From Synechococcales cyanobacterium M55_K2018_004 (GTDB taxonomy: Bacteria; Cyanobacteriota; Cyanobacteriia; Elainellales; Elainellaceae), in contig DVEB01000153.1 in NCBI GenBank assembly GCA_015295905.1, forward strand, positions 1-36,970: a DNA stretch of 36,970 nt. The letters run 5' to 3'. The position numbers and the translations under genes were made by a program. Each line of letters opens with the position of its first letter. The stretch's first letter is position 1. Under the pieces are notes generated by a model that worked only from the letters and a program-made list of their open reading frames with translations, was not told the DNA's origin and ran no database searches. Below are positions 6,978 to 29,146 of the stretch, one piece after another.

Positions 6978-8226
6978 TGCTGCACTGTGAAGTAGAGGGC
7001 ATCTGGAGATGAATAGTGACTGAGGGGCACACTTTATGCACCCCTTGGTCATCATTCATCCTCTCTTGGGGAGAAGCAAGAGGCCGGTGGTTCAAAACCA
7101 CGGGGGAGGGGCGATCACCCCTCCCTGAGACGAGCGTTACAAAGTACATGGTTTTGTAAACATCTTTGCGGTGGTTTGTGACTCAGCATAGGATTCATAA
7201 CAGAACGAAATCTAGAATGAATTGATCCCTGCGAATTTTGGCAAGGATCAAGTGAACTTTGGGTTAGAGTTGCTTGAACTAGTTGCAGCCTTGAGTACAT
7301 CAAATACCCAGACCTTCACGGAATGCACTCATTTTTGTCTAGGGGAAATGATGGTTTTTTCGGCAATTGTCACCTGAAAAATACTTGTTATTACTCCCAA
7401 TTCAATGACTTGAACAGGATAGGCTGATTCTTTCCTTTGAAAGTTTAAAGCTCTATCAAACTTGTTTAAAGAAGAGAAAGGTTTTTGTGAAAGAGGGTTT
7501 CAAAATGAGAGCGATCGCCCCTCCTTCTCCGCGATTGTCATTACGAAAACATGCTCAAAAGCCTGTGAAAACCAGGCTCCAGAAGATCTAATAAGATGCG
7601 ATGTATTTTTTTAGAAGCAGTAAATAAGCGATCGTAGGACGAGTTTCAAACGAGTTGACTTCTTAAGGATTACTTAATAGGCTGCCTGGAAATTGCTTGA
7701 ATAAGTTTGAAGACAATGCTTTCGCAGATTCTTATCAGCATTGAATAACGATCGTTTGTGATGAGGTTTACCTTTGTGATTGATACTTTGTTACAGGGAT
7801 GACGTTTCTTTTCAAAAGGCTTTCATAGAATAACGATGGAAATAAAAGAGGACTTTGAAATAGGACTTCCAGCTTACAACCGCTCAGTTTACGCCGATAT
7901 ACTTGATGGAAGTTCTGCAAAGATTCTCTTGATTTCTAACAGAAACCCGAAACGAGTTCTTTGAGAGGCTATTCAGCGTGAATCGTGATTCATCAGAAAA
8001 CCTAGTCTATTGATCACGGTTCTGAGCACGGTTCACTCTACCCCAGCTCAACGGAATGAGTCGTTACAAGAAACCAATCACCCCACGATTCGCAACACTG
8101 TTGGGGAGTTGACCAAAAGGGCGATCGCCCCAACAGTTTGAATTTGAATTTGTGACTGCGATCGCACAGAGCTACGAGATTGTTACCAGCGGTGGATTGG
8201 TTGTTCAGACGGTTTTCGGGCAGATC

Positions 8227-8238
8227 AAACGCCATTTA
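8227..8238 (-). promoter_or_regulatory. Shared 12-mer upstream of second nifH
   Basis: AAACGCCATTTA (TAAATGGCGTTT on the minus strand) lies about 113 bp before the nifH start. The same 12-mer occurs at 16539-16550 and as an inverted pair at 26089-26131 upstream of the other nifH. All copies are intergenic. The role is not known. Confidence 0.4.
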
Positions 8239-8317
8239 CGCAGTCGTAGATTTTTATCACTGCAACGAGATTTGCCGGATAGCCGGAGGTTTCTGCATGG
8301 GTCATTTTCTGACCTGA

Positions 8318-9175
<858 letters not shown>

Positions 9176-9237
9176 GGAATCGTCTGGGAATGGTTTGGAG
9201 GGCGCTCTTCCCTCTAACCCTGCTCAGGCCAACGCAG

Positions 9238-9316
9238 GACACCCGGTGTGGCAACGAGCGAATGAGAAAGACTTAAGATTGCGTGTGCGATCGCCTCTTG
9301 AGCACCGGGTGTCTTT
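9238..9316 (+). promoter_or_regulatory. Stem-loop between nifH and nifD (second cluster)
   Basis: GACACCCGGTG (9238-9248) pairs perfectly with CACCGGGTGTC (9303-9313) and is followed by TTTCCCTT. Such a stem between nifH and nifD can protect the nifH transcript or terminate part of transcription, giving more Fe protein than MoFe protein. The effect here is inferred. Confidence 0.45.
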
Positions 9317-9472
9317 CCCTTCAACAACGAGTTCACTCAACAATAAGTTCACTCAAAAGTCTACACAATTATTGTGACTCCAATCGCAAACCAGTTATCG
9401 CCTTCATGAATTGATTGTTCTGAATGATCACCATTACTGGTGTGGATTGGATACCCTAAAAGGAGACTGATC

Positions 9473-11101
9473 ATGTCGGATGAAAGACTCACCGCATCAG
9501 AAGCTTTGAAGTTAGACAAAGCACCGCTGAACAACCAGGAAACGGCTGTCGAAGAAATGGTTTCCGTTTATCCTGGCAAGGTTTCAAAGAAACGCAGCAA
9601 GCATATCATCATTCGCAACGACCAACCCAACCAGCCCATCGAAGCAAACGTCAGAACCGTTCCAGGCATTATCACCCAACGCCACTGTGCCTACGCAGGC
9701 TGTAAAGGGGTGGTGGTGGGGCCATTCGGGGATGTGCTCCACATTACCCACGGTCCGGTTGGTTGTTCCTATTACACCTGGATGACCCGACGTAACCTAT
9801 TTATGCCGCGTGAAGATGGCAAAAATTTCATGCACTACTGTGCAACCACCGACATGCAAGAGTCTGACATTGTGTTTGGCGGCGTCAATAAATTGCGGCA
9901 AGCAATCCAGGAAGGTTACGATACGTTCAAACCCAATGCCATCACCGTCTGTGCTACCTGTCCAGTCGGGCTGATTGGGGATGACATTCAGGCTGTTGCC
10001 AAAGAAATGACCGAGAAATTGGGAATTTCTGTAGTTGCCTTTAACTGCGAAGGCTACAAAGGCGTTTCCCAATCTGCCGGACACCACATCGCCAACAATG
10101 GATTTTTCAAGCACTGGGTTGGCACTGCTGACGAAGAAACACCGATTGAAGGATTCACCGTCAACCTATTGGGCGAATACAACATCGGTGGCGACTCCTG
10201 GGAAATTGAACGAGTCTTGAAGAAGTGCGGTATTAAAGTCGTGGCAACCTTTAGCGGTGATGGTTATTACGACGATACCACCCGTGCCCACTTGGCAAAA
10301 CTCAACCTTGTCATGTGCCACCGCTCCATCAACTACATGGCAGAAATGATGGAGAAAAAATACGGGATTCCCTGGATTAAGGTGCAATTCATCGGTGTGC
10401 AAGCCTTCACTAAAACTCTTCGTAAGATTGCCCAGTTCTTTGACGACCCAGACCTCACGGCTCGCATTGAAGCGGTGATCGAAGAAGAAGTGGCTCCCGT
10501 TGAAGCAGAACTGGCTCCGATTCGGGAACGGCTAAAAGGTAAAACGGCCATCTTGTTTGTAGGGGGGTCGCGTGCCCACCACTATCAAGACGTATTCGCA
10601 GACCTAGGCATCAAGACAATTGCCGCCGGCTACGAATTTGCTCACCGAGACGACTACGAAGGGCGACAGGTGCTTCCCACTCTCAAGATTGATGCAGACT
10701 CTCGCAATATTGAAGAACTGCACGTCGAACGTGACCCTGACCACTACAACCCACCCAAACCGGAGGAAGTGCTGGAGTGGATGAAGGCGGAAGGATTGAT
10801 CGGGAAGTACGATGGCATGATTCCAGACATGGGTGAAGGAACACTGGTGATTGACGATGTTTCGCACCATGAACTGGAGATTTTGATCAAACGCTTCCAG
10901 CCCGACATCATCGGTTCTGGCATCAAAGACAAGTATGTGATTGAGAAATGGGGGGTGCCCTGCAAACAACTGCACAACTATGACTACGGTGGTCCATTCG
11001 CCGGATTCAAAGGCGCAGTCAACTTTGCCAAGGACATTGATATGCGAATCAACGGCCCGGCCTGGAAACATATTGCAACGCCGTGGAAAAAGGCCAAGTA
11101 A
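9473..11101 (+). CDS. nifD: Nitrogenase MoFe protein alpha chain, clostridial type with insertion
   Basis: This encodes the 542-aa alpha subunit binding FeMo-cofactor and half of each P-cluster. P-cluster cysteines are C72, C98 and C163. Cofactor ligands are C282 (LNLVMCHRS) and H501 (QLHNYDY). Q200 and H204 lie in VSQSAGHH, and R367 in VGGSR. This is a Mo-type site, not the V- or Fe-only type. Compared with the NifD at 23522-25018 it has about 51 extra residues between DDY (393-395) and GTL (456-458), with the run EFAHRDDYEGRQVLPTLKID that I recall from C. pasteurianum NifD. The residue before the first P-cluster cysteine is H71, where Gly is usual. I chose the start at 9473 for its AAAGGAGA site; an in-frame ATG at 9440 has none. 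Confidence 0.95.
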   Translation: MSDERLTASEALKLDKAPLNNQETAVEEMVSVYPGKVSKKRSKHIIIRNDQPNQPIEANVRTVPGIITQRHCAYAGCKGVVVGPFGDVLHITHGPVGCSYYTWMTRRNLFMPREDGKNFMHYCATTDMQESDIVFGGVNKLRQAIQEGYDTFKPNAITVCATCPVGLIGDDIQAVAKEMTEKLGISVVAFNCEGYKGVSQSAGHHIANNGFFKHWVGTADEETPIEGFTVNLLGEYNIGGDSWEIERVLKKCGIKVVATFSGDGYYDDTTRAHLAKLNLVMCHRSINYMAEMMEKKYGIPWIKVQFIGVQAFTKTLRKIAQFFDDPDLTARIEAVIEEEVAPVEAELAPIRERLKGKTAILFVGGSRAHHYQDVFADLGIKTIAAGYEFAHRDDYEGRQVLPTLKIDADSRNIEELHVERDPDHYNPPKPEEVLEWMKAEGLIGKYDGMIPDMGEGTLVIDDVSHHELEILIKRFQPDIIGSGIKDKYVIEKWGVPCKQLHNYDYGGPFAGFKGAVNFAKDIDMRINGPAWKHIATPWKKAK

Positions 11102-11174
11102 ACGCGCATGTCGATGAGAAATGCAACCTCTCATCGACATCAACTCCCCATTGACACCACAAAGGAGAAGGCAA

Positions 11175-12551
11175 ATGTTAGAAGCCACCCCGAAAGAAAT
11201 TGTTAAACGTGAAGCACTGAGAATTAACCCAGCGAAGACCTGCCAGCCGATTGGGGCGATGTATGCCGCGTTGGGAATTCACAACTGCTTGCCCCATTCC
11301 CACGGTTCGCAAGGGTGTTGTTCATTCCACCGATCGCACTTAACCCGTCACTACCGTGAACCCATCATGGCCGCCACTAGTTCCTTTACGGAAGGTGCAT
11401 CGGTGTTTGGTGGTGGTCCCAACCTACGACAATCAATCAACACCATCTTCACGGTCTACAATCCCGATGTGATTGCGGTCAGCACCACTTGCCTATCAGA
11501 AACGATTGGGGATGATATCCCCACCTACATCCAACAGGCTAAGGAAGAAGATGGTTACGTGCCTGAAGGCAAGTATGTGATCCACTGCAACACGCCTAGT
11601 TATGTGGGTTCGCACATTACTGGATGGTCGAACATGGTGACGGGTATGGTGAAATACCTGTCCGAGAAAGAGGAACCAAAGCAACAATTGAACGTGATTC
11701 CTGGTTATGTGGAACCATCGGATACGCGGGAGATCAAACGGTTACTCAAACAACTAGCTGTTGATGCGATCGTCTTTCCAGACACGTCAGATGTAGTCGA
11801 TACACCCCAGACGGGAACCTATCGCATGTTCCCCAAAGGTGGCACAACCGTTGAACAATTGAAGAGGACTGGAGACAGTGTTGCGACGATTGCCTGTGGT
11901 CTATTCACGAGTGAGCAGCCGGCTCAAGCCCTGGAAGCTAAGTGTCAGGTTCCCTATCAGGTCGTCGATCTTCCCATTGGTCTACAGGCCACAGACCGCT
12001 TTGTGCAGACGGTGATGGAGTGGACCGGCGCCGTTCCTCCAGAGGAGGTCGAAGATGAACGCGGTCGCCTAGTCGATATCATGACGGATATGCAGCAATA
12101 CCTCTACGGCAGGCGCGTCGCGGTGTATGGCGACCCAGACCAGTTGGTTGCACTGACGGAATTTCTGGTTACCTGTGGCATGAAACCGGTGTACGTGATT
12201 ACGGGGAGTCCGGTAGGCAAACGCTTTGAAGAACGAGTCCACGAGATTGTGAAGGACTGGGTTCCTGATGCGGTGGTTGCTCAAGATGCAGACCTGTTCT
12301 ACCTACACCAGCTGATCAAGAATGATCCCGTGGATCTGTTGATCGGTAACGAGTACGGCAAATACATCGGACGTGCCGAGGATATTCCACTGGTTCGCTT
12401 TGGTTTCCCAATTCTTGACCGGATTGGTCACAGCTACTTCCCAACGGTTGGCTACCAGGGTGGCATTTATTTACTCTGCAACATCCTGAATACCATCCTG
12501 GAACGGCTGGATCGGGATGCAACGGATGAAACGATTGAGTTGGTTCGGTAA
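11175..12551 (+). CDS. nifK: Nitrogenase MoFe protein beta chain, clostridial short type
   Basis: This encodes the 458-aa beta subunit. P-cluster cysteines are C23 (AKTCQP), C48 (GSQGCC) and C106 (STTCLSET). The serine of TPSYVGSHITG is kept. It is about 50 residues shorter than the cyanobacterial NifK in this window because the N-terminal arm is missing. That is the length and layout of C. pasteurianum NifK (MLDATPKEIV... from memory; here MLEATPKEIV). A long alpha insertion with a short beta N-terminus is the known pairing in clostridial MoFe protein, so both halves agree. The start at 11175 has AAAGGAGAAGG just upstream. An ATG at 11121 would overlap the nifD-nifK spacer without a ribosome site. 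Confidence 0.95.
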   Translation: MLEATPKEIVKREALRINPAKTCQPIGAMYAALGIHNCLPHSHGSQGCCSFHRSHLTRHYREPIMAATSSFTEGASVFGGGPNLRQSINTIFTVYNPDVIAVSTTCLSETIGDDIPTYIQQAKEEDGYVPEGKYVIHCNTPSYVGSHITGWSNMVTGMVKYLSEKEEPKQQLNVIPGYVEPSDTREIKRLLKQLAVDAIVFPDTSDVVDTPQTGTYRMFPKGGTTVEQLKRTGDSVATIACGLFTSEQPAQALEAKCQVPYQVVDLPIGLQATDRFVQTVMEWTGAVPPEEVEDERGRLVDIMTDMQQYLYGRRVAVYGDPDQLVALTEFLVTCGMKPVYVITGSPVGKRFEERVHEIVKDWVPDAVVAQDADLFYLHQLIKNDPVDLLIGNEYGKYIGRAEDIPLVRFGFPILDRIGHSYFPTVGYQGGIYLLCNILNTILERLDRDATDETIELVR

Positions 12552-12661
12552 GGGGTGGGCGATCGCCATCACACCAGTTTGGATTTTCGATCTTGGATTT
12601 TGGATTGAAGGTTCAGGGGTGGGTGGCGATCGCTAACTAAAAAGGATTCTGGAGGGACATT

Positions 12662-12976
12662 ATGCGTAAGCCAAATCACCATATCTTCGTATGCGCCAGC
12701 TTCCGGCTCACCGGGGAAGCCAAGGGGGCTTGCCAGAAGAAGCATTCCACTGATCTGATGCAGTATTTGACAAGTGAACTGAGCGATCGCGGTATGGACG
12801 ACGTGACAGTTTCGACGACGGGATGTTTAAGTCTCTGTGATAATGGGCCAGTCATGCTCGTTTATCCAGACAACTACTGGTATGGTAATGTCAATGAGGA
12901 GGGAATTGATCGAATTCTAGACGCCTTAGAAGAAAACCAAGCATCTGAGGAAGACTTACTCACCTTTGCAGGATAG
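12662..12976 (+). CDS. Thioredoxin-like [2Fe-2S] ferredoxin, C. pasteurianum 2Fe type
   Basis: This encodes a 104-aa electron carrier. Ligand cysteines are C11, C24, C55 and C59, in the arrangement of the thioredoxin-fold ferredoxins (C. pasteurianum 2Fe ferredoxin, Azotobacter Shethna protein I). The opening KPNHHIFVCASFRL and the later YPDNYWYGNV closely match the clostridial protein as I remember it (HHIFVCTSCRL, VWYGNV). That ferredoxin is known to associate with the MoFe protein. The residue matching clostridial Cys14 is Phe. A strong GGAGGG site precedes the ATG. It lies 110 bp after nifK on the same strand, so it is probably the dedicated partner of this nitrogenase. Confidence 0.9.
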   Translation: MRKPNHHIFVCASFRLTGEAKGACQKKHSTDLMQYLTSELSDRGMDDVTVSTTGCLSLCDNGPVMLVYPDNYWYGNVNEEGIDRILDALEENQASEEDLLTFAG

Positions 12977-13038
12977 GCCGCCTCGGGGAGTAGAGGCCTG
13001 GTTTTGAAACAGACAAGCCAACGTAGAATGCAACCTTT

Positions 13039-13069
13039 GGCATTGAGAGGAAACTTTCAATGCCTTTCT
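13039..13069 (+). terminator. Probable terminator of the second nif cluster
   Basis: GGCATTGAGAG (13039-13049) pairs with CTTTCAATGCC (13054-13064) with one mismatch and a GAAA loop. TTTCT follows. It lies 62 bp after the ferredoxin stop. Confidence 0.45.
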
Positions 13070-13144
13070 AATGTTTGGTTGATCGCTCCCATGCTCTTCC
13101 CTAGAACGATTGGCTGGGTCGCAGGCGCAGCCCGCAACCTAACC

Positions 13145-13270
13145 AAACGTCAGTTCTTGTTAAGCGGGTTTTGGGTCATCGGGCCGGGCGCGGTGACCCA
13201 AAACCCTTGCTGTTCCGGGCGCGTCGCGCCCGGAACAGCAAGGGTTTCAGCTTATCCCGAATTCACGTTA
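13145..13270. mobile_element. MITE-like hairpin element, copy B (complete)
   Basis: This is a 126-bp element with no coding capacity. The ends are AAACGTCAGTTCTTGTTAAG and, inverted, TAACGTGAATTCGGGATAAG. Inside are two stems: a 13-bp arm pair ending in GGGTCA/TGACCC, and a perfect 23+1+23 palindrome (13201-13223 with 13225-13247). It has the same length and layout as copy C at 36754-36879. No clear target-site duplication was seen. Confidence 0.75.
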
Positions 13271-13361
13271 AGAATCCTAAGAAACGCGATGTGTGAATTC
13301 AGCCATGCCATTCAATCCATGCACTTGCTTGGGGCTGTGGCTTCGCCTCGCGGCCCCGAAT

Positions 13362-14444
13362 TTAGGACGGAAAGAACCGGAGCAGTGGATCGGTAATTGT
13401 CAGGCTGACCCGTGTGCCGGGGGCAACTGCCTTGCTTGCGGTCGTCCTCACATACAGTCGTTTGCCGCTATCGGTGACCACAGTGTAGCGATACTCTCGG
13501 CCCAGAAATTGGCGATCGCTCACCGTTGCCTGCCCGTGTTCATCTGGCTGGACTTGCAACACTTCCTGACGGATCATGAGTTCACCCTTGAGGCCAGGCA
13601 TTTCAGCATGGTTGCAGGCCGTCTGACAACTGCATTGCACCTGGCTTTTCTCAAGATGACACAGTTCCGTGCTCCAGCCTGAAGCCTCCTGAGTTGCAGG
13701 CAGAAAATTGGCCTGGGTGACAAACTCTGCCACAAAGCGTGAACTAGGCTGACGGTAAATATCCTCAGGCGTGCCCCACTGTTCAAGGCGACCCTGCCGC
13801 ATCACAGCGACTCGATCGGCGATCGCCATAGCCTCTTCCTGATCGTGGGTAACAAACACGGCTGAGGTCTGAGTTGCCTTGAGAATTTCGCGGATTTCTT
13901 GACGCAAGTAAAGTCGCACCTGCACATCCAGATTACTCAGCGGCTCATCCAGCAGCACTAGGGTAGGACGGGGAGCGAGTGCCCGGGCCAAGGCAACCCG
14001 CTGTTGTTGACCACCGGAGAGCTGGTGCGGGTAGCACGACTCCTTGCCTTGCAGGTTGACCAGGGCGATCGCCTCTGCCACTCGTTCTTGGGCTGCCTTA
14101 CCCAAGAGGGTTGTCTGTTTCAGACCAAAGGCAATATTTTCAGCAACGGTGAGGTGGGGAAACAGCGCAAAATCCTGAAACACCATACCAATGGAACGAC
14201 GTTCCGGTGCAATGCACCTTCCCGGTTGAGCCGCCACCTGACCCGCCAGCAAAATGCTTCCCTGCGTGGGTGCTTCAAACCCAGCAATTAGCCGCAGTAG
14301 GGTGGTTTTGCCGCAACCCGATGGCCCCAACAGGGCGAGAATTTCACCCGGGCTAAGGGTGAGCGTTACGCCAGCGACCGCAGGCAGGTCATTGGCAGAA
14401 AACTGTTTGGTGACCCGATCGAGATGCAAGATAGGAGCGGACAT
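13362..14444 (-). CDS. futC: Fe(III) ABC transporter ATPase, FutC/FbpC type
   Basis: This 360-aa ATP-binding subunit powers periplasmic-binding-protein-dependent iron import together with the divergent permease at 14840. It has Walker A GPSGCGKT (40-47), signature LSGGQQQR (142-149), Walker B LVLLDEP (162-168) and switch H200 in FVTHDQEEAM. The C-terminal TOBE-like part (from about 245) contains an unusual cysteine group C262, C271, C273 and C277, which could be a metal site. The protein resembles FutC/FbpC more than ModC or CysA. No substrate-binding protein (FutA) gene is in the window. The start is divergent from futB across 395 bp. Iron demand of nitrogenase makes the position sensible. 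Confidence 0.88.
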   Translation of the reverse strand: MSAPILHLDRVTKQFSANDLPAVAGVTLTLSPGEILALLGPSGCGKTTLLRLIAGFEAPTQGSILLAGQVAAQPGRCIAPERRSIGMVFQDFALFPHLTVAENIAFGLKQTTLLGKAAQERVAEAIALVNLQGKESCYPHQLSGGQQQRVALARALAPRPTLVLLDEPLSNLDVQVRLYLRQEIREILKATQTSAVFVTHDQEEAMAIADRVAVMRQGRLEQWGTPEDIYRQPSSRFVAEFVTQANFLPATQEASGWSTELCHLEKSQVQCSCQTACNHAEMPGLKGELMIRQEVLQVQPDEHGQATVSDRQFLGREYRYTVVTDSGKRLYVRTTASKAVAPGTRVSLTITDPLLRFFPS

Positions 14445-14650: not shown

Positions 14651-14839
14651 AAGTCGTCACAAAAGACCTTTTGTATTTTTGCAAATTGTTCTCAACAAAG
14701 CAAACCTAGATTTGAGGAAAGTCCTACTGCAAAGATTCAGCGGCGATCGCTCTTAATACTCCTGTGCTCCGCTGGCATGGGCGCAGTTTCCATCAAACAA
14801 GGATGCTAAAATTTTGCATTAGTCTATTCCGTGCGCCTC

Positions 14840-16531
14840 ATGCAAACGACTCCCCAAGACACTCCTCCCCACCCCCCGCAGGTGCCAGCAGGGTCGCCCC
14901 GAATTCCTGGTCTCGATGTCTGGACGCTCGGAGTGGGGGCGATCGCACTGCTGATCGCGTCGCCTGTGGTAGTCGTGCTCAGCAGTGTTTTTGTCAGTTC
15001 CGGCGATGTCTGGAGTCACTTGGCCAGTACCGTGTTAGGGACGTATATCCGCAATTCACTGCTGTTGATGGTGGGGGTTGGCCTCAGCGTGGTGGGGGTT
15101 GGGGTGGCGACAGCATGGCTCGTGACGATGTGTCGCTTTCCTGCCAGTCGCTGGCTAGAGTGGGCGCTGCTGCTGCCGCTGGCGGCCCCGGCCTACATCC
15201 TCGCCTATGTCTACACCGAGTTGTTGGACTACTACGGCCCGGTGCAGGCTGCCCTGCGGGCAGTGTTTGGTTGGCAGCGGGCACAGGACTATTGGTTTCC
15301 CAATGTGCGATCGCTCCCCGGTGCGATTGTGTTATTCACCTTCACGCTCTATCCCTACGTCTACCTGCTGGTGCGGGTGGCGTTTCTGGAACAATCAGTC
15401 TGCACACTGGAGGCCAGCCGAGTGCTGGGCTGTTCGCCTTGGCAAAGTTTCTGGCGGGTGGCGGTGCCGTTGGCGCGTCCGGCGATCGCCGCTGGCACTG
15501 CCCTTGCTCTGATGGAGACCCTGAGCGACTATGGCACAGTGGCTTACTTTGGGGTGGATACGTTTACAACCGGCATCTATCGCACCTGGTTTGGCATGGG
15601 CGATCGCCCCGCCGCGTCGCAGTTGGCTGCTGTGCTGATGCTGTTTGTGGCGGCGTTGGTGTTCCTAGAACAATGGTTTCGACGACAGGCTCGGTTTTAC
15701 CAGGCGCGCGGCACACACCAGCAAATGCCTCGCTATCAATTGCGCGGCTGGCGGGGAGTGATCGCCCTGCTGGTTTGTCTCCTGCCGCTGATCCTGGGGT
15801 TTCTGCTGCCGGCTGCCTTCCTGCTCCAGATGGCGCTGCAAAATCTCGCCCAGTTCAGTGAAGCCCGGTTCTGGAGCTTTGCAAGCAATAGCCTGCTGCT
15901 GGCAGGAATCACAGCGTTTATCGGGGTCGCGATCGCTCTACTCATCGCCTATGGTGTGCGCTTACGTCCTAGTGGGCCGATGCTGCTCTCCACCCGCTTG
16001 GCAGCGATGGGCTATGCCATTCCGGGATCAGTGATTGCGGTGGGGGTGCTAGTGCCATTGGGGGCGTTCGATAATGCGCTAGATGCTTGGATGCAGCGCC
16101 AGTTTGGCATCTCGACGGGACTATTGCTGAGTGGAACAATCGCCGCCTTAGTGTTTGCCTACCTGGTGCGCTTCTTGGCCGTCGCCTTAAACACCGTAGA
16201 GGCCAGCTTGGGGCGGATCAAGCCAAGTCTGGATGATGCGGCGCGGTCGCTGGGCCAAAACCCCTTCGGCACCCTGCGCCATGTCCATGCGCCCTTAATG
16301 GCAAGCGGGTTGTTAACTGCTGGCCTGCTGGTGTTTGTGGATGTCATGAAGGAACTGCCAGCAACACTGATCGTGCGTCCGTTTAACTTTGATACGCTAG
16401 CAGTGCGTGTCTACCAACTCGCCTCCGATGAACGATTGGTGGAAGCAGCAGCCCCTGCCTTGGCGATTGTCCTTGTTGGCATCCTGCCTGTGATCTTGCT
16501 CAGTCGGCAAATTGCGCGATCGCGCCTCTGA
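14840..16531 (+). CDS. futB: Fe(III) ABC transporter permease, FutB/FbpB type
   Basis: This encodes an inner-membrane permease of 563 aa built from two fused transmembrane modules, as in FbpB/FutB. Each half ends with an EAA loop that contacts the ATPase: EASRVLGCSPWQSFWRVAVP in the first, and DAARSLGQNPFGTLRHVHAP in the second. About a dozen hydrophobic segments are visible. The N-terminal 25 residues are proline-rich and cytosolic. The ATG at 14840 is chosen; a GTG three codons earlier is possible, and neither has a good ribosome site. With FutC it would form the membrane complex. It could in principle carry another ligand, but the FbpB-like fused architecture favours ferric iron. Confidence 0.88.
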   Translation: MQTTPQDTPPHPPQVPAGSPRIPGLDVWTLGVGAIALLIASPVVVVLSSVFVSSGDVWSHLASTVLGTYIRNSLLLMVGVGLSVVGVGVATAWLVTMCRFPASRWLEWALLLPLAAPAYILAYVYTELLDYYGPVQAALRAVFGWQRAQDYWFPNVRSLPGAIVLFTFTLYPYVYLLVRVAFLEQSVCTLEASRVLGCSPWQSFWRVAVPLARPAIAAGTALALMETLSDYGTVAYFGVDTFTTGIYRTWFGMGDRPAASQLAAVLMLFVAALVFLEQWFRRQARFYQARGTHQQMPRYQLRGWRGVIALLVCLLPLILGFLLPAAFLLQMALQNLAQFSEARFWSFASNSLLLAGITAFIGVAIALLIAYGVRLRPSGPMLLSTRLAAMGYAIPGSVIAVGVLVPLGAFDNALDAWMQRQFGISTGLLLSGTIAALVFAYLVRFLAVALNTVEASLGRIKPSLDDAARSLGQNPFGTLRHVHAPLMASGLLTAGLLVFVDVMKELPATLIVRPFNFDTLAVRVYQLASDERLVEAAAPALAIVLVGILPVILLSRQIARSRL

Positions 16532-19228: not shown

Positions 19229-19813
19229 TTATTCATCCCATGCTTGGCAAGAGCCTTGATGAGAACAGTGCAAGGCTTCGATCAAGTTGGCGATTGCTTC
19301 GGGTTCCATGCCACTCAGCCGCTTTTTCCCAGGGAGCATCACCATGTTGGGAGCCAAAGAGCATTTCCCCAGACAACCCGTTTCTTCAAAGACGACCATC
19401 TGGTGCAGGTTGCGATCGCGCAACACCTGTTCCAACTGCTTGTGACGTTTCTTCCCTCCCTGCTTCTGACAGCCCGACTTATAGCAAACTTTGACCGTGA
19501 CCGTTTTGCCTGGGCGGACGACCTCTGACTCACGCCTGGCGTGTTCTAGGCAAGACACCCGTCTGACTTGAGCGGCTTTGAGCATGGCCGAGCCAGCCCG
19601 ACTCACGCACTGACTCCCCTGAACCAAGATGCGATCGCCCCGATGCAAGGTTGTGCCCACTGAGGCCCGAGCTGCTTTGGTGAGCTTGATGCAAAACTGG
19701 CGATCGTCGCAGGCCATCCAAAGGAATTTCAGCTTGTGGCCTTCCATCTCAAACCCGAGAAATTGCCCTTCAAGCTGAAACGGTTCAGTGGAGTCAGGTT
19801 TCGATTTGCTCAT
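19229..19813 (-). CDS. (2Fe-2S) thioredoxin-like ferredoxin-domain protein
   Basis: This encodes a 194-aa protein. Residues 1-95 form an N-terminal domain with no domain I recognise (LEGQFLGFEMEGHKLKFLWM...). The C-terminal part (105-182) is a thioredoxin-like [2Fe-2S] ferredoxin domain with likely ligands C110, C115, C147 and C151 (VKVCYKSGC ... TGCLGKC). Three more cysteines follow or precede in less conserved places. It starts 33 bp after the nifT stop, so it is in the nif operon and probably an electron carrier or Fe-S helper for nitrogen fixation. I chose the ATG at 19813, because upstream frame sequence overlaps nifT and looks non-coding. Confidence 0.85.
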   Translation of the reverse strand: MSKSKPDSTEPFQLEGQFLGFEMEGHKLKFLWMACDDRQFCIKLTKAARASVGTTLHRGDRILVQGSQCVSRAGSAMLKAAQVRRVSCLEHARRESEVVRPGKTVTVKVCYKSGCQKQGGKKRHKQLEQVLRDRNLHQMVVFEETGCLGKCSLAPNMVMLPGKKRLSGMEPEAIANLIEALHCSHQGSCQAWDE

Positions 19814-19845
19814 GATTGTGTCGAGGACTGCTAAACACTCAGATA

Positions 19846-20052
19846 CTACGCGAGTCTTTTGGCTTCGATGGTGAATGGCAGGCGAGTCCCTTCTTGCCAG
19901 GCGGGCACTTCTAACTCCCAACCGTTGGCTAGAGTATAGATAAACCCGTTCTCACCATTATCCACTTGCTTAACCACTTCTTCTTCTAGATCTTTCTTGG
20001 CCACGTAGACCACAAGATGACCCAATTTATTTTCACGCAGCATAACTTTCAT
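19846..20052 (-). CDS. nifT: NifT
   Basis: This encodes a 68-aa protein. MKVMLRENKLGHLVVYVAKKDLEE and FIYTLANGWELEVP match the small NifT/FixU family found next to nifZ or nifK in most diazotrophs. Its biochemical role is not established, and mutants usually have mild phenotypes. It has no cysteines or membrane segment. A purine-rich GAGGAA lies before the ATG. It is placed between nifZ and the [2Fe-2S] protein. Confidence 0.93.
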   Translation of the reverse strand: MKVMLRENKLGHLVVYVAKKDLEEEVVKQVDNGENGFIYTLANGWELEVPAWQEGTRLPFTIEAKRLA

Positions 20053-20218: not shown

Positions 20219-20512
20219 TCAAACACTCGTTGTTTCTGCTGGAATGCCCTCAATCACTTCAGCCGACTCTAGTTCCTTGCTCCGACATCCCACAACATAG
20301 CCCGTCTTCAGGAAATGGACAGCAAAAATGTAGTATTGCTGAAGAAACGTACCAATGCTGATGACGTAACCCGTGTCGCCTTTCTTGGCTAGGATTTCAC
20401 CAATCTCTTTCCCTGGAAAGGTGCCATCATTGCGAATGAGTTTTTTGACACGCACCTTTTCCCCAATGTCGAAGATGGGTGGTGCATCAATTTCAATTTC
20501 ATCGGATCGCAT
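20219..20512 (-). CDS. nifZ: NifZ
   Basis: This encodes a 97-aa protein with the NifZ domain: PPIFDIGEKVRVKKLIRNDG, then GDTGYVISIGTFLQQYYIFAVHFL and VGCRSKELE. NifZ helps the second P-cluster of the MoFe protein mature. The start at 20512 overlaps the nifV stop by 14 bases, with GGAGGAGT inside nifV as its ribosome site. That indicates translational coupling. An ATG seven codons upstream lies deeper in nifV and is less likely. Confidence 0.93.
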   Translation of the reverse strand: MRSDEIEIDAPPIFDIGEKVRVKKLIRNDGTFPGKEIGEILAKKGDTGYVISIGTFLQQYYIFAVHFLKTGYVVGCRSKELESAEVIEGIPAETTSV

Positions 20513-21632
20513 GGGGACTCCTCCGCTCAGCAACTAGGTTTAAAAGTTCATCGGTCGTCAGGCTGCGCTTCAGTTGCACAGATAGGTGTCGCACTTGGTC
20601 TAGCAGGGATTGGGCCTCGGTGGGTTCGAGGGAAATGCCGTTTTGCTGCAACACATTGAGGACGAGATGGCGTCCTGAATGTTTGCCAATCACCAGGCGA
20701 TGCTCCTGTCCCACCTCTTCTGGGGCGAAGGGTTCGTAGCTGACTGGATTTTTGAGGATGCCGTCTGCATGGATACCCGCTTCGTGGGCAAAGGCATTGG
20801 CTCCAACGATCGCCTTCCAGGGAGGGAGAGAACTGCCTGAAGCCTGTGACACGAGCCGCGAGACTTCGGGCAAACGCCGAGTATCAATTCCCAATTTGAT
20901 CCCGTAGAGTTGTTTCAGGGCAACAACAACCTCTTCTAGGGCCGCATTACCTGCCCTCTCACCCAAACCATTCACGGTAGTATTCACCGATTTTGCCCCC
21001 GCTTTAATTCCTGCCAGGGCATTGGCCGTTGCCAAGCCTAGATCGTTATGCGTGTGCATCTCGATGGGAATGGACAGCATCTCCACTAGACGATTGACCT
21101 TCTGGTAGGTGCTGAAGGGATCAAGAATGCCAACTGTGTCACAAAATCGGAAGCGAGAGGCGCCACATTCCTGGGCAAAGTGGGCGGCATCTAGCAAGAA
21201 GCCTTCATCGGCTCTAGAGGAATCTTCGCCGCCGACCGAGACGTAGAGGCCGTGGTCGAGGGCATAGGCGATCGCATCCCTAAGGCGCTCCAGCATCCTG
21301 CGCCAGTGCCCCTGAAACTTGACTGCAATTTGCACATCTGAGACGGGAATAGAAAGATGCACCCGCTTCAGGCCACAGGCCACCGAGGCTGCAATATCAG
21401 AAATCACAGCCCGGTTCCAACCAAGCAACTGAGCGTTGAGGCCTAGATCGACAATCGTACGAATCGCCTGTTGTTCCTCTTCTCCCATTGCGGGGATGCC
21501 GATTTCTAGCTCGTGGACGCCAATCATATCCAAGAGCTGGGCGATCGCCACCTTTTCCTCTAGCGTGAAGGCCACACCCGCAGCCTGTTCGCCATCTCGC
21601 AGCGTCGTATCGTTGATCTGGATATTGTTCAT
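20499..21632 (-). CDS. nifV: Homocitrate synthase NifV
   Basis: This encodes a 377-aa enzyme condensing acetyl-CoA with 2-oxoglutarate to make homocitrate, the organic ligand of FeMo-cofactor. The HMGL-like TIM barrel begins INDTTLRDGEQAAGVAF (metal-binding Asp and catalytic residues). EMHTHNDLGLATANALAG carries the HxH metal ligands, and NTTVNGLGERAGNAALEEVV is the family signature. The C-terminal region GIHADGILKNPVSYEPF is also present. The start at 21632 is preferred over 21662 because it lies just before the barrel and has a purine-rich GAGAG upstream. Being next to nifK is normal for Leptolyngbya-type clusters. Confidence 0.94.
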   Translation of the reverse strand: MNNIQINDTTLRDGEQAAGVAFTLEEKVAIAQLLDMIGVHELEIGIPAMGEEEQQAIRTIVDLGLNAQLLGWNRAVISDIAASVACGLKRVHLSIPVSDVQIAVKFQGHWRRMLERLRDAIAYALDHGLYVSVGGEDSSRADEGFLLDAAHFAQECGASRFRFCDTVGILDPFSTYQKVNRLVEMLSIPIEMHTHNDLGLATANALAGIKAGAKSVNTTVNGLGERAGNAALEEVVVALKQLYGIKLGIDTRRLPEVSRLVSQASGSSLPPWKAIVGANAFAHEAGIHADGILKNPVSYEPFAPEEVGQEHRLVIGKHSGRHLVLNVLQQNGISLEPTEAQSLLDQVRHLSVQLKRSLTTDELLNLVAERRSPHAIR

Positions 21633-21779
21633 CACCCGCTCTCTGATCTCGATAAACCCCATAAATAGCGCGATTTTCTTGAGGAAAGAGACGTTGCCAG
21701 AAATGTCTTAAGAGCACTCGCAACGTCTCGAAAAGGAACGTAATCTGTCTCAATCAGTTTGCACAGGAATTCATGATTT

Positions 21780-21862
21780 GATCCCCCTAGCCCCCCCTTG
21801 AATCAGGGGGGAACTAGCAGATTGGGAAGTCCCCCTGATCAAGGGGGATTTTGGGGGATTGC
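21780..21862. repeat. Dispersed CCCCCT/AGGGGG repeat between nifK and nifV
   Basis: Alternating GATCCCCCTAGCCCCCCTTG, AATCAGGGGGGAACTAG and CCCCCTGATCAAGGGGGATT blocks form overlapping inverted repeats. This is a common short intergenic repeat type in filamentous cyanobacteria. It lies right after the nifK stop and could act as a 3' barrier or attenuator. Confidence 0.55.
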
Positions 21863-23401
21863 CTAGCGAATTAGGTCGTAGGAAATATCCGTCTTCGCAG
21901 GAATGATCGTGTTGCGATCGAGTTCATCCAGAACGGTGTTCACCACCCAATTCAGGATGTTAATCGTGCCTTGGTAGCCGTAGGTGGCGTAACGGTGCAG
22001 GTGATGACGATCGAAGATGGGATAGCCAATCCGCACCATTGGGGTGTGGGTGTCGCGCCACAGGTACTTACCGTAGGAGTTCCCGATAAAGAAGTCTACG
22101 GGTTCTGTGAAGAGCAGGGAGCGCATATGCCACAAATCCTTGCCACCGTAGATGGTTGCGCCTGCGCCGAAGGGGCTAGAATCGAGCAGCGCCCGCAGTT
22201 CTGCCTCAAACTCCTCATTGCTGTTGGTGACCACAATGTGAATTGGTTCAGCACCGACCTCTAGCAGGAATTGGGTCAGACCAATCACGAGATCGGGGTC
22301 ACCATAGTACGCAACGCGCTTGCCATGCAACCAAGCTTGGGAGTCAGTTAGAGCGTCTACAGCGCGTCCCCGCTCAGCTTCCAGTTCAGCAGGAATGGGC
22401 TTACCCGTCAGAGCCGAGAGCTTCATCAGGAACTCGTCTGTGCCACGAATGCCCACGGGACGAGTCACAAAGGTCTTTTGTCCCCATGTCTGTTCGATGT
22501 ATTCCCGTGTCTTGACCGTAGAGTAAGCTTGGAAAGCGATCGTTGCCTCGGCATTAATCGAGTCTGCTGCATCTTCCAGCGTTGTGCCACCAACGTACAT
22601 CTTGAACTCACCGTCGTTGGGAGAATCGAGATAATCAGAGTTGTCGGCCAACAGCGTGTAGTCTACCCCCATCAACCCAGCAATGCGCTTAATTTCGCGC
22701 AGATTGCCGACGTAGGTCTCAAAACCAGGGATGAAGTTGATCTTGCCGTTTGTGGTTTCTTTTTTCTTGCCTTCCGTCAGGTTACTCAAGATGCCCTTCA
22801 ACATGTTGTCGTAGCCCGTGATGTGGGAGCCGACAAAGCTAGGAGTATGTGCGTAGGGAACAGGAAAGTCTTTAGGAACAGAGCCTTCCTCTTTGGAAGC
22901 CTTAATAAACGCTCCCAAGTCATCCCCAATCACCTCTGCCATGCAGGTGGTGCAAAGGGCGATCATCTTAGGCTTATAGAGGTTGTAGGCGGTTGCCAAG
23001 CCCTCTTTCATGTTGTTAAGTCCGCCGAAGACTGCCGCATCTTCCGTCATACTGGAGGAAACCGCAGAGAAGGGTTCCTTGAAGTGGCGGGTAAAGTGGG
23101 AGCGGAAGTAAGCCACACAGCCCTGGGACCCATGCACAAACGGCAGCGTTCCTTCAAAACCAACCGCTGCTAGAATTGCACCCAGGGGTTGGCACGCTTT
23201 TGCCGGGTTAACAGTGAGGGCTTCCCGTGCAAAGTTCTTTTCCCGATATTCCCAGGTCTTTGTCCATTCAGCAACGCGGGCCACTTCATCGGGGTCATGC
23301 CCGCCTTCAAACTGTTTCTTGTTGGCAAACAGTTCTTGATACTCGTCCTGGTGGAACAACTCGGCGTGGTCTTTGATCTTATTGACGTCGTTCTGAGCCA
23401 T
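21863..23401 (-). CDS. nifK: Nitrogenase MoFe protein beta chain, cyanobacterial type
   Basis: This encodes a 512-aa beta subunit, the exact length usual for cyanobacteria. P-cluster cysteines are C70 (AKACQP), C95 ([12 protein letters not shown]) and C153 ([12 protein letters not shown]). Ser in [13 protein letters not shown] is present. The long N-terminal arm (1-60), absent from the beta chain at 11175-12551, is present. The start at 23401 (MAQNDVNK) is chosen because the longer frame to 23464 runs through a hairpin in the nifD-nifK spacer. It is paired with the nifD upstream. Confidence 0.96.
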
Positions 23402-23447
23402 AATTTTTCTCGCTTTGAGGGAATTGGGTAGGAGGAGAGAATTGCAA

Positions 23448-23513
23448 AACGTGATGCAACGCATCCTAAAAAACCTAGGATTTTCAGAACGTGATGCAAC
23501 GCATCACGTTCTG
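23448..23513 (-). promoter_or_regulatory. Double hairpin in the nifD-nifK spacer
   Basis: CAGAACGTGATGC (23485-23497) pairs perfectly with 23501-23513. A second small stem, ATCCTA/TAGGAT, lies at 23463-23484. AACGTGATGCAACGCATC occurs twice (near 23448 and 23488). The spacer could set the nifD to nifK ratio through RNA processing. Confidence 0.45.
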
Positions 23514-23521
23514 ACAGTCAC

Positions 23522-25018
23522 CTATTTCTTCCAGGGCGCACCAATCAAGCTCCAAGTTGGGCTGTTGAGAGCCATGTCCATATCGCGGGCGAAGATAGCG
23601 AAACCATCGTAGCCGTGGTACGGGCCGGAGTAATCCCAGGAGTGCATCTGGCGGAAAGGCAGCGCCATCTTCTGGAAGACATACTTCTCTTTGATGCCAG
23701 AAGCAATTAGGTCAGGCTTCAGGGCTTTGACGAATTCCTCAAATTCGTAGGCAGAAACATCGTCGTAGATCAACGTGCCATTCTCGATGTAGTGAGTTGT
23801 GCGCTTGTAGTCGTCGTTGTGAGCGAATTCATACCCAGTTCCAACGAGGCGCATTCCTAGGTCGTGGAATGCAGGCACAACGTGACGCGGACGCAGACCA
23901 CCCACCATCAGGGCGACCGTCTTACCTTCCAGACGTGGACGGTATTTTTCCAGTACGGCCTGGGTCTGGGCTTCGTATTTGGCGATCACTTCTTCCGCTT
24001 TTTGCTGAATGGTTTCGTCAAACCTCGAAGCAATTTCCCGCAGAGATTCCGCAATCTTGGTGGGGCCGAAGAAGTTGTATTCCAACCAGGGAATGCCGTA
24101 AGCTTCTTCCATGTGGCGGCTGATGTAGTTCATCGAGCGGTAGCAGTGCACCAAGTTCAGCTTCACCGTTGGGGTCAGCATCATTTCATTCAGGGTGCCA
24201 TCTCCAGACCACTGGGCTACCACGCGCAGGCCAATTTCTTCTAGCAGAATGCGACTTGACCAGGCATCGCCACCGATGTTGTAGTCTCCAATGATGGCGA
24301 CATCATAGGGGGTTGACTCAGCTTTGAGGGTGCCATCTTTCAACGCTTTGTCAGCTTTGGGGAAGACCCAGTCCCGCACAGTGTCGTTGGCGATGTGGTG
24401 TCCGAGGGATTGCGACACACCCCGGAACCCTTCGCAGCGAACAGGAACAACGGTCTTGCCAATTTCCCGAGAGGATTTTTTGGCGACGGCTTCGATGTCA
24501 TCCCCAATCAGACCAATCGGACATTCAGATTGAATGGAAATACCCCGATTGAGGGGGAAGAGTTCTTCCAATTCGGTGATGAGTTTGGCTAGTTTTTTGT
24601 CACCCCCGAACACAATATCTCTTTCCTGGAAGTCGGAGGTGAACTGCATCGTACCAAAGCTATCAACACCAGTCGTACCAATGTAATAGTTCCGACGACC
24701 AGACCAGGAGTAGTAACCACAACCCACGGGACCATGACTGATGTGGATCATGTCTTTGATCGGTCCCCAAACCACACCTTTTGATCCGGCGTAGGCACAG
24801 CCACGGGTGGTCATGGAACCGGGAACGGACTTGATGTTGGACTTAACGCCGCAATCTGGTTTGCCTTCTTCGTAAACGTTGAGGTGCTTCTCCCGCTTTT
24901 TCTTAGATTTCTCAGGATAGGCTTCGAGGACTTCTTTGATCAGTTCTTTAGTTGCGGCAACGGGTTGCTGAGGAGCGGCAGTTACTTCGCTTAATGTCGC
25001 AGATTCAGGAGGGGTCAT
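23522..25018 (-). CDS. nifD: Nitrogenase MoFe protein alpha chain, cyanobacterial type
   Basis: This encodes a 498-aa alpha subunit. P-cluster cysteines are C74, C100 and C166. FeMo-cofactor ligands are C292 (LNLVHCYRS) and H459 (RQMHSWDY). The catalytic pocket shows Q203 and H207 in VSQSLGHH and R376 in VGGLRPRH. There is no insertion between DDY and GTL, in contrast to the other NifD. The gene is intact; there is no nifD excision element as in heterocystous strains. A 13-bp stem-loop separates it from nifH. Confidence 0.97.
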
Positions 25019-25090
25019 AGGCTGTCTCTACAGATTTCAGAATGGAGTAGGCGGAGAAGAGAAGGAGAGTTGATTTTGGGCTTTAGAGTT

Positions 25091-25131
25091 TGGATTTTGG
25101 ATTTTTGATGCCATCGCCAATCCAAAATCCA
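25091..25131 (-). promoter_or_regulatory. Stem-loop between nifH and nifD (main operon)
   Basis: TGGATTTTGGATT (25091-25103) pairs perfectly with AATCCAAAATCCA (25119-25131), in the 126-bp gap. Stem-loops at this place in other diazotrophs stabilise an abundant nifH-only transcript; that role here is inferred. Confidence 0.5.
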
Positions 25132-25144
25132 GCATTCAACCGGG

Positions 25145-26394
<1,250 letters not shown>

Positions 26395-27285
26395 CTAGAT
26401 TGCTTCAACCACTAAACTGGGTAGGACTCGTTCCTGTAAGCGAGCTTCGATCGCAATCTTCAGGGTGGCGGTGCTGCTGGAGCAGGAACCACATGCACCT
26501 TTGAGCGAGACTAGGACGCGATCGCCCTCGACATCAAACAGTTCCACATCGCCACCATCGGCAAGCAGCACAGGACGCACTTCTTCAGCTAGAACTTGTT
26601 GGATCAGGGCAATTTTTTGGACGGTGGTGAGGGGGCGAGTCGCCTTTTCTTGGGAAACGGCAATTTCTGCGGCAAGTTTGACGGGCATAGCAGCAACTTC
26701 GGCCTGCACTTCTGCAATTAAATCTTCAATGTCTGTCAGACAGGTGCCACACCCCCCTCCTGCTTTTACGTAATTGGTGACCTGTTCCGCAGTGGTCAGA
26801 TTGTTTTCGATAATGACGCGACGAATTTTTGCATCACTGATGCCAAAACAACTACAGATGAGTTTGCCGTCGTCATCGTCGTGTTGCTCAACTTCAATGC
26901 CGCGGTATTTATAGATAGCAGCTTCTAGAGCTTCCTGCCCCATCACCGAACAGTGCATTTTTGCTTCAGGCAATCCACCGAGATAGTCAGCAATATCTTT
27001 GTTGCTCACGTTCAGTGCTTCATCTAAGGTCATGCCTTTGATCATTTCGGTTAACGCTGAAGAAGAGGCAATCGCACTGGTACAGCCAAAGGTTTGGAAG
27101 CGAGCATCTAAAATTCGATCTTCGGCAATATCAATTTTGAGATGTAATCTCAATGCATCACCGCAGGCAATACTGCCCACTTCACCAAAAACCGTTGCAA
27201 TTCCTTCTTCGTTCGACGCTTCAATCACCCCTTGATTTTTGGGGTTATAGAAGAGCTCCATTACTTTTTCGGTATAGTCCCACAT
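26395..27285 (-). CDS. nifU: Fe-S scaffold protein NifU
   Basis: This 296-aa modular scaffold builds Fe-S clusters for nitrogenase with sulfur from NifS. The N-terminal IscU-like domain has C41, C68 and C112. A central domain binds a permanent [2Fe-2S] cluster through C144, C146, C179 and C182 (ICSCFG ... GGGCGTC). The C-terminal Nfu domain has CGSC (C265, C268). All cluster ligands are present. The start at 27285 (MWDYTEKVM) is the family start. The longer frame to 27354 translates through the nifS-nifU hairpin and is rejected. It is downstream of nifS. Confidence 0.96.
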   Translation of the reverse strand: MWDYTEKVMELFYNPKNQGVIEASNEEGIATVFGEVGSIACGDALRLHLKIDIAEDRILDARFQTFGCTSAIASSSALTEMIKGMTLDEALNVSNKDIADYLGGLPEAKMHCSVMGQEALEAAIYKYRGIEVEQHDDDDGKLICSCFGISDAKIRRVIIENNLTTAEQVTNYVKAGGGCGTCLTDIEDLIAEVQAEVAAMPVKLAAEIAVSQEKATRPLTTVQKIALIQQVLAEEVRPVLLADGGDVELFDVEGDRVLVSLKGACGSCSSSTATLKIAIEARLQERVLPSLVVEAI

Positions 27286-27318
27286 GGTTGTTGTTTCAGA
27301 ATGAAGGGTGGATTCTTT

Positions 27319-27357
27319 GTGATGTGCAATGTGTGCTTTGTACACATTGCACATCGC
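27319..27357 (-). promoter_or_regulatory. Long hairpin between nifS and nifU
   Basis: GATGTGCAATGTGT (27321-27334) pairs perfectly with ACACATTGCACATC (27342-27355). The stem extends by two more pairs to a TTT loop. It fills most of the 87-bp spacer and could be an RNA processing or stabilising element. Confidence 0.45.
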
Positions 27358-27372
27358 TAAAATTGCAAATCA

Positions 27373-28569
27373 CTAAACAAGTACTTCTTCTCGACCTTGT
27401 AACCAATCAGCTTCGTCACTGTTAAAGGGTGAGATAGCTCGCAGGTTTTCGACAATTCCAGGTAACACGTCTAGAACACGATCGATTTCTGCATCGGTGG
27501 TAAAGCGCGACAGGCTGAACCGAATGGAACCATGCAGGATGGTGTAGGGCAGTCCCATGGCACGTAGAACGTGGGATGGTTCAAGGGAACCAGAGGTGCA
27601 GGCAGAACCGGAGGAAGCGCAGATGCCGTGTTTGTTGAGCATCAGCAAAATTGCTTCACCTTCGATGTATTTGAAGCCAATATTTGTGGTATTTGGCAGG
27701 CGATTTTTGGGATGACCGTTGACTTCGGTGTTGGGGATGGTAGTAAGAATTGTTTGTTCGAGGCGATCGCGCAATCGTTGTTCCCGTCCTGTATATTTCA
27801 GTTCAAAGCTGGCAATTTCAGCCGCTTTACCAAGTCCGATAATGCCGGGAACATTCTCGGTTCCGGCTCTGCGCCCGCGTTCCTGGTGGCCGCCTAGCAG
27901 CAATGGCCGGAAGCGGAAACCTTTACGGATGTAGAGCGCACCGACTCCCTTGGGCGCATGGAGTTTGTGACCAGAGATGGTCATCATGTCCACGGTGCTG
28001 GTCTTCATATTCAGGGGTAATTTCCCTGCTACCTGCACCGCATCAACGTGGACAGTGGCTCCGTAGCCCTTGGCGATCGCTCCAATCGTTTCAATTGGGA
28101 AAACAACCCCTGTTTCGTTGTTGGCATACATGATTGTGACGAGGGCGGTGTCTCCCGTCAGGGCCGCTTCCAGTTCCATCAGGTCAAGCATTCCCTGACG
28201 GTCAACCGACAAATAGGTGACTCGATACCCCTGCTTTTCCAACTGTTTGCATACATTCAAAACACAGGGATGTTCGACCTGTGTGGTGATAATGTGACGG
28301 CGATCGGGCTGGGCAGCGAGGGCAGCACGAATTGCCGTGTTATTCCCCTCTGTCCCACAACTAGTAAACACAATTTCGGACGCTTCCTCTGCACCAAATA
28401 GGGTGGCAACCTGCTCACGAGCTTCCTTCAGGGCTTTGCCGACCTGCCCACCAAACGAGTGCATCGAAGAGGGATTGCCGTACAACTCGGTCAAATAAGG
28501 CAGCATGGCCTCCAAAACGGCAGGATCAACCTTTGTGGTGGCATTGTTATCGAGATAAATCACCGTCAT
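27373..28569 (-). CDS. nifS: Cysteine desulfurase NifS
   Basis: This 398-aa PLP enzyme takes sulfur from cysteine for NifU. It begins IYLDNNATTKVDPAVLEAM. It has H100 in QVEHPCV, K202 in TISGHKLHAPKG (PLP Schiff base) and the persulfide cysteine C324 in ASSGSACTSGSLEPSHV. The length is normal. It lies between fdxN and nifU. Confidence 0.96.
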   Translation of the reverse strand: MTVIYLDNNATTKVDPAVLEAMLPYLTELYGNPSSMHSFGGQVGKALKEAREQVATLFGAEEASEIVFTSCGTEGNNTAIRAALAAQPDRRHIITTQVEHPCVLNVCKQLEKQGYRVTYLSVDRQGMLDLMELEAALTGDTALVTIMYANNETGVVFPIETIGAIAKGYGATVHVDAVQVAGKLPLNMKTSTVDMMTISGHKLHAPKGVGALYIRKGFRFRPLLLGGHQERGRRAGTENVPGIIGLGKAAEIASFELKYTGREQRLRDRLEQTILTTIPNTEVNGHPKNRLPNTTNIGFKYIEGEAILLMLNKHGICASSGSACTSGSLEPSHVLRAMGLPYTILHGSIRFSLSRFTTDAEIDRVLDVLPGIVENLRAISPFNSDEADWLQGREEVLV

Positions 28570-28673
28570 AGCGCTGTCTCTTGAGAGGACGTAAATAGGA
28601 AGGAAGATTGAGAGGGCGATCGCACTCAGCCTAACGACTCAAAAATTGGTGAGTGGTATGAACTCCAGTGCTA

Positions 28674-29027: not shown

Positions 29028-29146
29028 AGCTTCACTCCGAAAAAGGATCAAGATTGAACAACGATCCTAGAGAAGAAAGATAGGTCATAAAATTTAAGAA
29101 AAGAAGGAGGCAAATTTTATGACCTATCTGTCAGCAATCCAATGTT

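Follow-up and report, generated by a model that had tools for sequence, protein, structure and literature searches.

Among the described relatives of the ferredoxin treated here, the 2Fe ferredoxin of Clostridium pasteurianum has a mobile cysteine, Cys14, and ligand swapping in this protein was reportedly described by Golinelli in 1996 and again in 1998. The protein interacts with the MoFe protein of nitrogenase (Golinelli 1997, described in PMC8561814), docks on it via Glu31, Glu34 and Glu38, and is encoded in an anf cluster (both as presented in PMC8561814). Shethna protein I (FeSI) of Azotobacter vinelandii (PDB 5abr) has the same thioredoxin-like [2Fe-2S] fold and its gene is located in a nif cluster; in the account given in PMC8561814 it is without the docking glutamates and did not cross-link to MoFe. 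The ferredoxin of Aquifex aeolicus (PDB 1f37/1m2a), a bacterium that the same source describes as not fixing nitrogen (PMC8561814), also has four cysteine ligands. Thioredoxin-like [2Fe-2S] ferredoxins follow a common spacing rule, Cys-X10-12-Cys-X29-34-Cys-X3-Cys (PMC11138216).

At the level of operons, Coleofasciculus and Sodalinema are reported to have acquired desulfo-type nif genes from sulfate reducers, and one of the genes in Figure 2 of that paper is, according to its legend, 'Fd, ferredoxin, 2Fe-2S', i.e. a 2Fe-2S ferredoxin in an operon of the type described below (PMC12694226). A 2021 study of 179 cyanobacteria reported no acquisition of nif genes from other phyla and cites an earlier contrary report (PMC8071049). 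The nif cluster of Nitratidesulfovibrio vulgaris (NZ_CP116248.1) is ordered nifH-I-I-D-K-fd-E-N-B, with a Phe14 ferredoxin directly behind nifK, as in our case. The desulfo-type operons of Sodalinema, Coleofasciculus and N. vulgaris keep nifI1/I2 and nifENB, whereas ours consists only of H-D-K-fd and stands beside a cyanobacterial nif set.

The DNA analysed (henceforth the window) is a stretch of 36,970 nucleotides from Synechococcales cyanobacterium M55_K2018_004, whose genome (5.01 Mb, 362 contigs) is 99.98% complete. Its features of interest are as follows.

8351–9175, plus strand: nifH of the desulfo-type set, 274 aa, above the NCBIfam cut-off
9176–9439, plus strand: gap of 264 bp between nifH and nifD, in which nifI1/nifI2 were not found
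9440–11101, plus strand: nifD of the clostridial/desulfo type, 553 aa, above the NCBIfam cut-off, nearest relatives of the clostridial/desulfo type
11121–12551, plus strand: nifK of the clostridial/desulfo type, 476 aa, above the NCBIfam cut-off
12662–12976, plus strand: fd, gene of a thioredoxin-like [2Fe-2S] ferredoxin of 104 aa, from the ORF as read, the PF01257 profile and the predicted fold
20219–20533: nifZ, from Pfam
20499–30712, minus strand: host cyanobacterial-type set of nifB, nifS, nifU, nifH, nifD, nifK and nifV, convergent to the desulfo-type set

In the host set, H, D and K were named by profile and B, S, U and V by eye together with phmmer matches to relatives. The ferredoxin gene starts 110 bp behind the stop of nifK on the same strand and is the last gene of nifH-nifD-nifK-fd. 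Hydrococcus rivularis has a desulfo-type NifH with 91% identity to that of this set, whose NifD in turn shares 53–84% identity (best segment) with the NifD of 80 named loci from Cyanobacteria, Deltaproteobacteria, Verrucomicrobia and others. Compared with the cyanobacterial-type proteins encoded on the other strand of the window, identity is 44% for NifD and 42% for NifK. Four cysteines of the desulfo-type NifD (C87, C113, C178, C297) are conserved in 40–41 of 41 aligned relatives and three of NifK (C42, C67, C125) in all 41; we take both sets to be metal ligands. Extra cysteines (C92 and C267 of NifD, C57 and C68 of NifK) are likewise found in 38–41 of the 41 clostridial/desulfo-type relatives, at positions where the window's cyanobacterial-type NifD and NifK carry Ser, Ile, Thr and Val; C92 of NifD and C57 and C68 of NifK are near cysteines that we regard as P-cluster ligands.

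No NtcA-like GTA-N8-TAC site was found before the first nifH (the window has two matches elsewhere, with 2.17 expected by chance). Scans of positions 7100–13400 gave 2 promoter-like sites, where shuffled sequence gave 6.4, and 9 terminator-like sites, where it gave 6.9, and a search of phage records gave only two weak matches. Behind fd there is a perfect inverted repeat (13201–13247, 23-base arms, 1-base loop) that may be a terminator or a small mobile repeat. Adjoining the desulfo-type set, an ABC-transporter ATPase gene (13362–14444, minus strand) is divergent from that of a double-length permease (14831–16531, plus strand); the best NCBIfam matches of this pair were of phosphonate, polyamine, iron and molybdate kinds, none shown above cut-off. 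Near the host nif set, a 230-aa protein (19229–19921, minus strand) has a C-terminal thioredoxin-like [2Fe-2S] domain, and ORFs resembling it occur in Microseira and Hydrococcus.

The fd ORF was read directly: it has an ATG start with GGAGG just upstream and a TAG stop, and encodes exactly four cysteines (Cys11, Cys24, Cys55, Cys59) and a phenylalanine at residue 14, as an earlier note on this DNA had stated. The ligand spacing, Cys11-X12-Cys24-X30-Cys55-X3-Cys59, fits the rule of the PF01257 family, whose profile the protein matches at 31.2 bits (gathering cut-off 24.8). An AlphaFold2 monomer model, with a mean pLDDT of 83 but only 66 over residues 11–20, has 1m2b, 1m2d and 1m2a as its top PDB matches and 5abr at rank 7 (TM about 0.8). 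By profile, ligand pattern and modelled fold the protein is a thioredoxin-like [2Fe-2S] ferredoxin, with predicted cluster binding.

The same note had matched it to the C. pasteurianum ferredoxin, which stands as homology and fails as membership of that type. The two proteins belong to a common fold family, have the same four ligands and the loop residues S13, R15, G18 and G22, and are 41% identical over 93 residues when compared with a C. pasteurianum sequence entered by hand. However, the clostridial equivalog profile NF041612 (fdxn_Clost, cut-off 150) gives the window protein 88.3 bits, as opposed to 211.8 for that hand-entered sequence. The differences include Phe14 for Cys14, Asp, Gln and Ser for Glu31, Glu34 and Glu38, and one residue fewer before Cys55. 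The FeSI profile NF041613 (fdxn_Azotob, cut-off 195) is matched at 63.7 bits; FeSI itself has a CxQNRP loop with Asn14 and falls outside the nif-linked Phe14 rows in our tree. The Aquifex ferredoxin, with the same fold (TM about 0.8), has Asp14.

Residue 14 was compared over sequences gathered by similarity to the window ferredoxin or to its NifD, identical trimmed starts being merged, a sampling under which the share of Phe14 may run high. Phe is present in 85 of 96 distinct nif-linked sequences, the others having Ala (6), Ser (2), Tyr, Val or Ile (1 each) and never Cys, while the 19 unlinked sequences have Gln (9), Glu (5), Gly (2), Ser, Thr or Cys (1 each) and never Phe. The raw count, 85/98 nif-linked and 0/18 unlinked, preceded the re-filing of two rows: L151 (FeSI-like, Ser14, near nifV/nifW) was left out of the nif-linked set and L210 (Glu14, with only a nifS-like ORF 3.4 kb away) was placed among the unlinked ones. 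The Fisher value for these counts takes no account of kinship among the rows. The state at this position (Phe or other) changes about four times on the ferredoxin tree, and Phe14 is therefore a branch marker and not the outcome of 85 independent events. It is part of a wider signature, S13, F14, Y35, E39, D42 and E79, each found in 85–94 of the 96 nif-linked rows but in no more than 26% of the 19 unlinked ones; all six are present in the window protein. A search of the open-access literature, mostly at listing level, found no report of this Phe14 signature.

On the clostridial side, replacing C by F at position 14 of NF041612 costs 3.6 bits and by A 2.2 (17 further letters, 2.0 to 4.1), as against 4.6 bits for F and 3.7 for A at the ligand positions 11 and 24, and by these profile costs Cys14 is common in the clostridial branch, though probably not universal there. 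In the nif-linked branch Phe14 is the norm, and in our sample, which comprises no Clostridia genomes, the sequences give no sign of Cys14 at any stage of the window lineage. A lineage-specific loss was rejected as an account of Phe14, given Phe in most nif-linked relatives and Cys in none, with polarity unproven in this sample.

The coupling of the ferredoxin to clostridial-type nitrogenase genes, which the earlier note had proposed, was borne out for its close homologues. At E ≤ 1e-12, homologues occur in 13 of 386 genomes of the cyanobacterial phylum; immediately upstream of each of the seven strong ones (E ≤ 4.7e-39, counting that of the window) is a desulfo-type nifK, and none of the six weak ones (E 1.2e-18 to 6.6e-14) has a match to the window Nif proteins within the 4–20 kb around it. 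Conversely, desulfo-type nifK (E ≤ 1e-150) was found in 4 of 388 genomes of the cyanobacterial class, each time with a ferredoxin behind it. In Desulfobacterota, 59 of 395 genomes have a homologue (60 places), and 52 of the 53 places scoring 77 bits or more are inside nif clusters, compared with 0/7 below 77 bits (a lone nifS-like ORF 3.4 kb away not being counted). A distribution mainly away from nif genes, which had been named as the evidence that would tell against a specific partnership, is thus seen among the weak matches and not among the close ones; the window genome itself has weaker homologues away from nif genes on two other contigs (C296 and C80; E between about 1e-7 and 1e-6). The nif coupling of the strong homologues is real and largely known already.

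The position within the cluster is more variable. As to whether the gene always follows clostridial-type nifK, it does so in the cyanobacteria examined but not elsewhere, where it often comes after nifB. In the 52 Desulfobacterota clusters the nearest nif gene is an upstream nifK in 19 and nifK with a NifB-like ORF in between in 16, an upstream nifH or nifI in 8 (mostly with nifE downstream) and an upstream nifB in 8; the last place has nifE downstream and nothing assigned upstream. The intervening NifB-like ORF scores about 180 bits to N. vulgaris NifB in the two clusters in which it was examined. Of the 80 named loci, which were selected for the similarity of their NifD, 40 hold the ferredoxin (one is cut by a contig end), 33 of them behind nifB, 6 behind nifK and 1 before nifH, while 11 extend past nifB without a ferredoxin in the stretch and 29 are too short to tell. 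These 11 loci, together with the whole genome of Desulfacinum infernum, in which no ferredoxin match was found at E ≤ 1e-6, indicate that the ferredoxin is not essential.

Over 41 of 42 hand-listed clusters, ferredoxin distances correlated with those of NifK (r = 0.70; 0 of 2000 permutations as high) and of NifD (0.61), NifK and NifD themselves giving 0.92. The nearest non-cyanobacterial rows for NifK and NifD are from Desulfobacterota (a Desulfomonile MAG and N. vulgaris), and for the ferredoxin from Fibrobacterota and a Spirochaete, a mismatch of phyla that may be noise with about 100 residues. The ferredoxin tree, built from 91 columns for 119 rows and with stars on 22 of its 116 inner branches, served for broad grouping only. 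Two Fibrobacterota rows fall among the cyanobacterial ones and four cyanobacterial rows stand apart, i.e. there is no single cyanobacterial clade; C. pasteurianum comes out next to two long-branched unlinked rows, a placement on which we do not rely. Given this tree and the different phyla of the nearest relatives, a joint transfer of fd with HDK out of a single sulfate reducer is not demonstrated.

The window genome holds two each of NifH, NifD and NifK, but a single NifE and a single NifN, both on contig C342, and a single nifB; a desulfo-type nifEN or a second nifB was not found in it. An ORF for a plant-type ferredoxin, which looks to us like fdxH, is near the host nifEN. For nifI1 the genome gave only a distant match on another contig (E 3e-12), of a strength typical of ordinary PII proteins and similar to what Microseira and Hydrococcus give, and nifI2, searched in the fetched loci, was not found at the window locus. 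All nine other cyanobacterial desulfo-type clusters in which the relevant part is visible keep nifI1/I2, nifE and nifN, with nifB visible in eight (one is cut); nifI is absent from many clusters in Verrucomicrobia, Planctomycetota and Actinobacteria. Both types of nitrogenase occur in Hydrococcus rivularis, where the desulfo-type cluster is complete. Microseira wollei (NIES-4236) also has both types, and its desulfo-type nifK and fd are still open, but a transposase-like ORF interrupts its desulfo-type nifD at about residue 107; in our view this ORF resembles an IS200/IS605-type TnpB. No second NifH was found in its genome at E ≤ 1e-60, and with nifD interrupted as well it was not counted as a second minimal case. 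The window is the sole intact case seen of a set reduced to H, D, K and fd, and no report of such a set was found in the open-access literature, again searched mostly at listing level.

We consider it likely that the window gene belongs, as an ordinary member, to the nif-linked Phe14 branch, that it is carried with desulfo-type nifHDK and that its product acts as an accessory redox partner docking there. The set would be of the kind that some cyanobacteria reportedly acquired from sulfate reducers. The ferredoxin, a four-cysteine [2Fe-2S] protein and by analogy a dimer, would dock on the desulfo-type NifDK or on its complex with NifH, and might serve in one-electron buffering or in P-cluster or oxidative adjustment. 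As the main electron donor to NifH, the plant-type ferredoxin near the host nifEN is a likelier candidate than the window protein. The cell presumably uses the desulfo-type set; if it works, it must borrow its cofactor from the host NifB and NifEN. A MoFe partnership is plausible, with the known molecular basis of docking not conserved: in place of the C. pasteurianum glutamate triad the window protein has D31, Q34 and S38, and none of the 96 nif-linked sequences has all three positions acidic (one acidic in 51, none in 45). Residues of the same helix are conserved in the branch (Y35 in 94, E39 in 88 and D42 in 87 of the 96) and could form an alternative docking face.

A role in assembly, in which the ferredoxin would supply electrons for FeMo-cofactor maturation on NifB/NifEN and its cyanobacterial place with HDK would reflect operon history, seems to us rather unlikely. 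It would account for the position after nifB in most ferredoxin-bearing named loci, for the frequent neighbourhood of nifE or nifB in Desulfobacterota, and for the place of A. vinelandii FeSI after the nifENX genes (PMC8561814). In the window genome, however, fd is intact behind nifK with no desulfo-type nifEN or second nifB found. Being the one accessory gene kept, it favours a role at NifHDK over cofactor assembly, as far as a single case goes.

Most of the carriers identified come from groups usually regarded as anaerobes, which argues against a protective protein that would bind NifDK/NifH in the manner of FeSII under O2 or oxidant stress and hold them in an inactive, shielded complex. We regard such a function as improbable, although the cyanobacterial hosts make oxygen and thioredoxin-like ferredoxins have been suggested to act as redox switches (PMC11138216); FeSII is, besides, of the adrenodoxin type and has another fold (PMC11301756). 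About as improbable is the view of fd as a passenger in a decaying acquired set, for which Microseira wollei, with about the first 107 residues of NifD missing, no second NifH found and K and fd open, is the model; in the window all four genes, H, D, K and fd, run to full length, and those cysteines that we take to be metal ligands are conserved. The remaining reading, that of the earlier note, in which a C. pasteurianum-type ferredoxin lost its mobile Cys14, is very improbable: the two proteins do have S13, R15, G18 and G22 in common and NF041612 scores the window protein 4.2 bits higher with Cys14 than with Phe14, but nif-linked relatives have Phe in 85/96 and Cys in 0/96, and the two solved relatives have Asn and Asp.

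The nif-linked ferredoxins are a known but poorly understood set, of which the window gene is an ordinary member, and the survey corrects the reading of its Phe14 as a loss. The Phe14 signature provides a simple marker that separates the nif-linked branch from the remaining ferredoxins, and the H-D-K-fd set of the window is a natural minimal case for asking what the ferredoxin does. It is possible, though we hold this with more doubt than confidence, that the Phe14-type ferredoxins are a distinct functional subfamily acting at desulfo/clostridial-type NifHDK, and that fd was the sole accessory gene that the trimmed operon had to keep. If so, a foreign nitrogenase would be able to run on the single NifB/NifEN of its host, but not without its own [2Fe-2S] partner.
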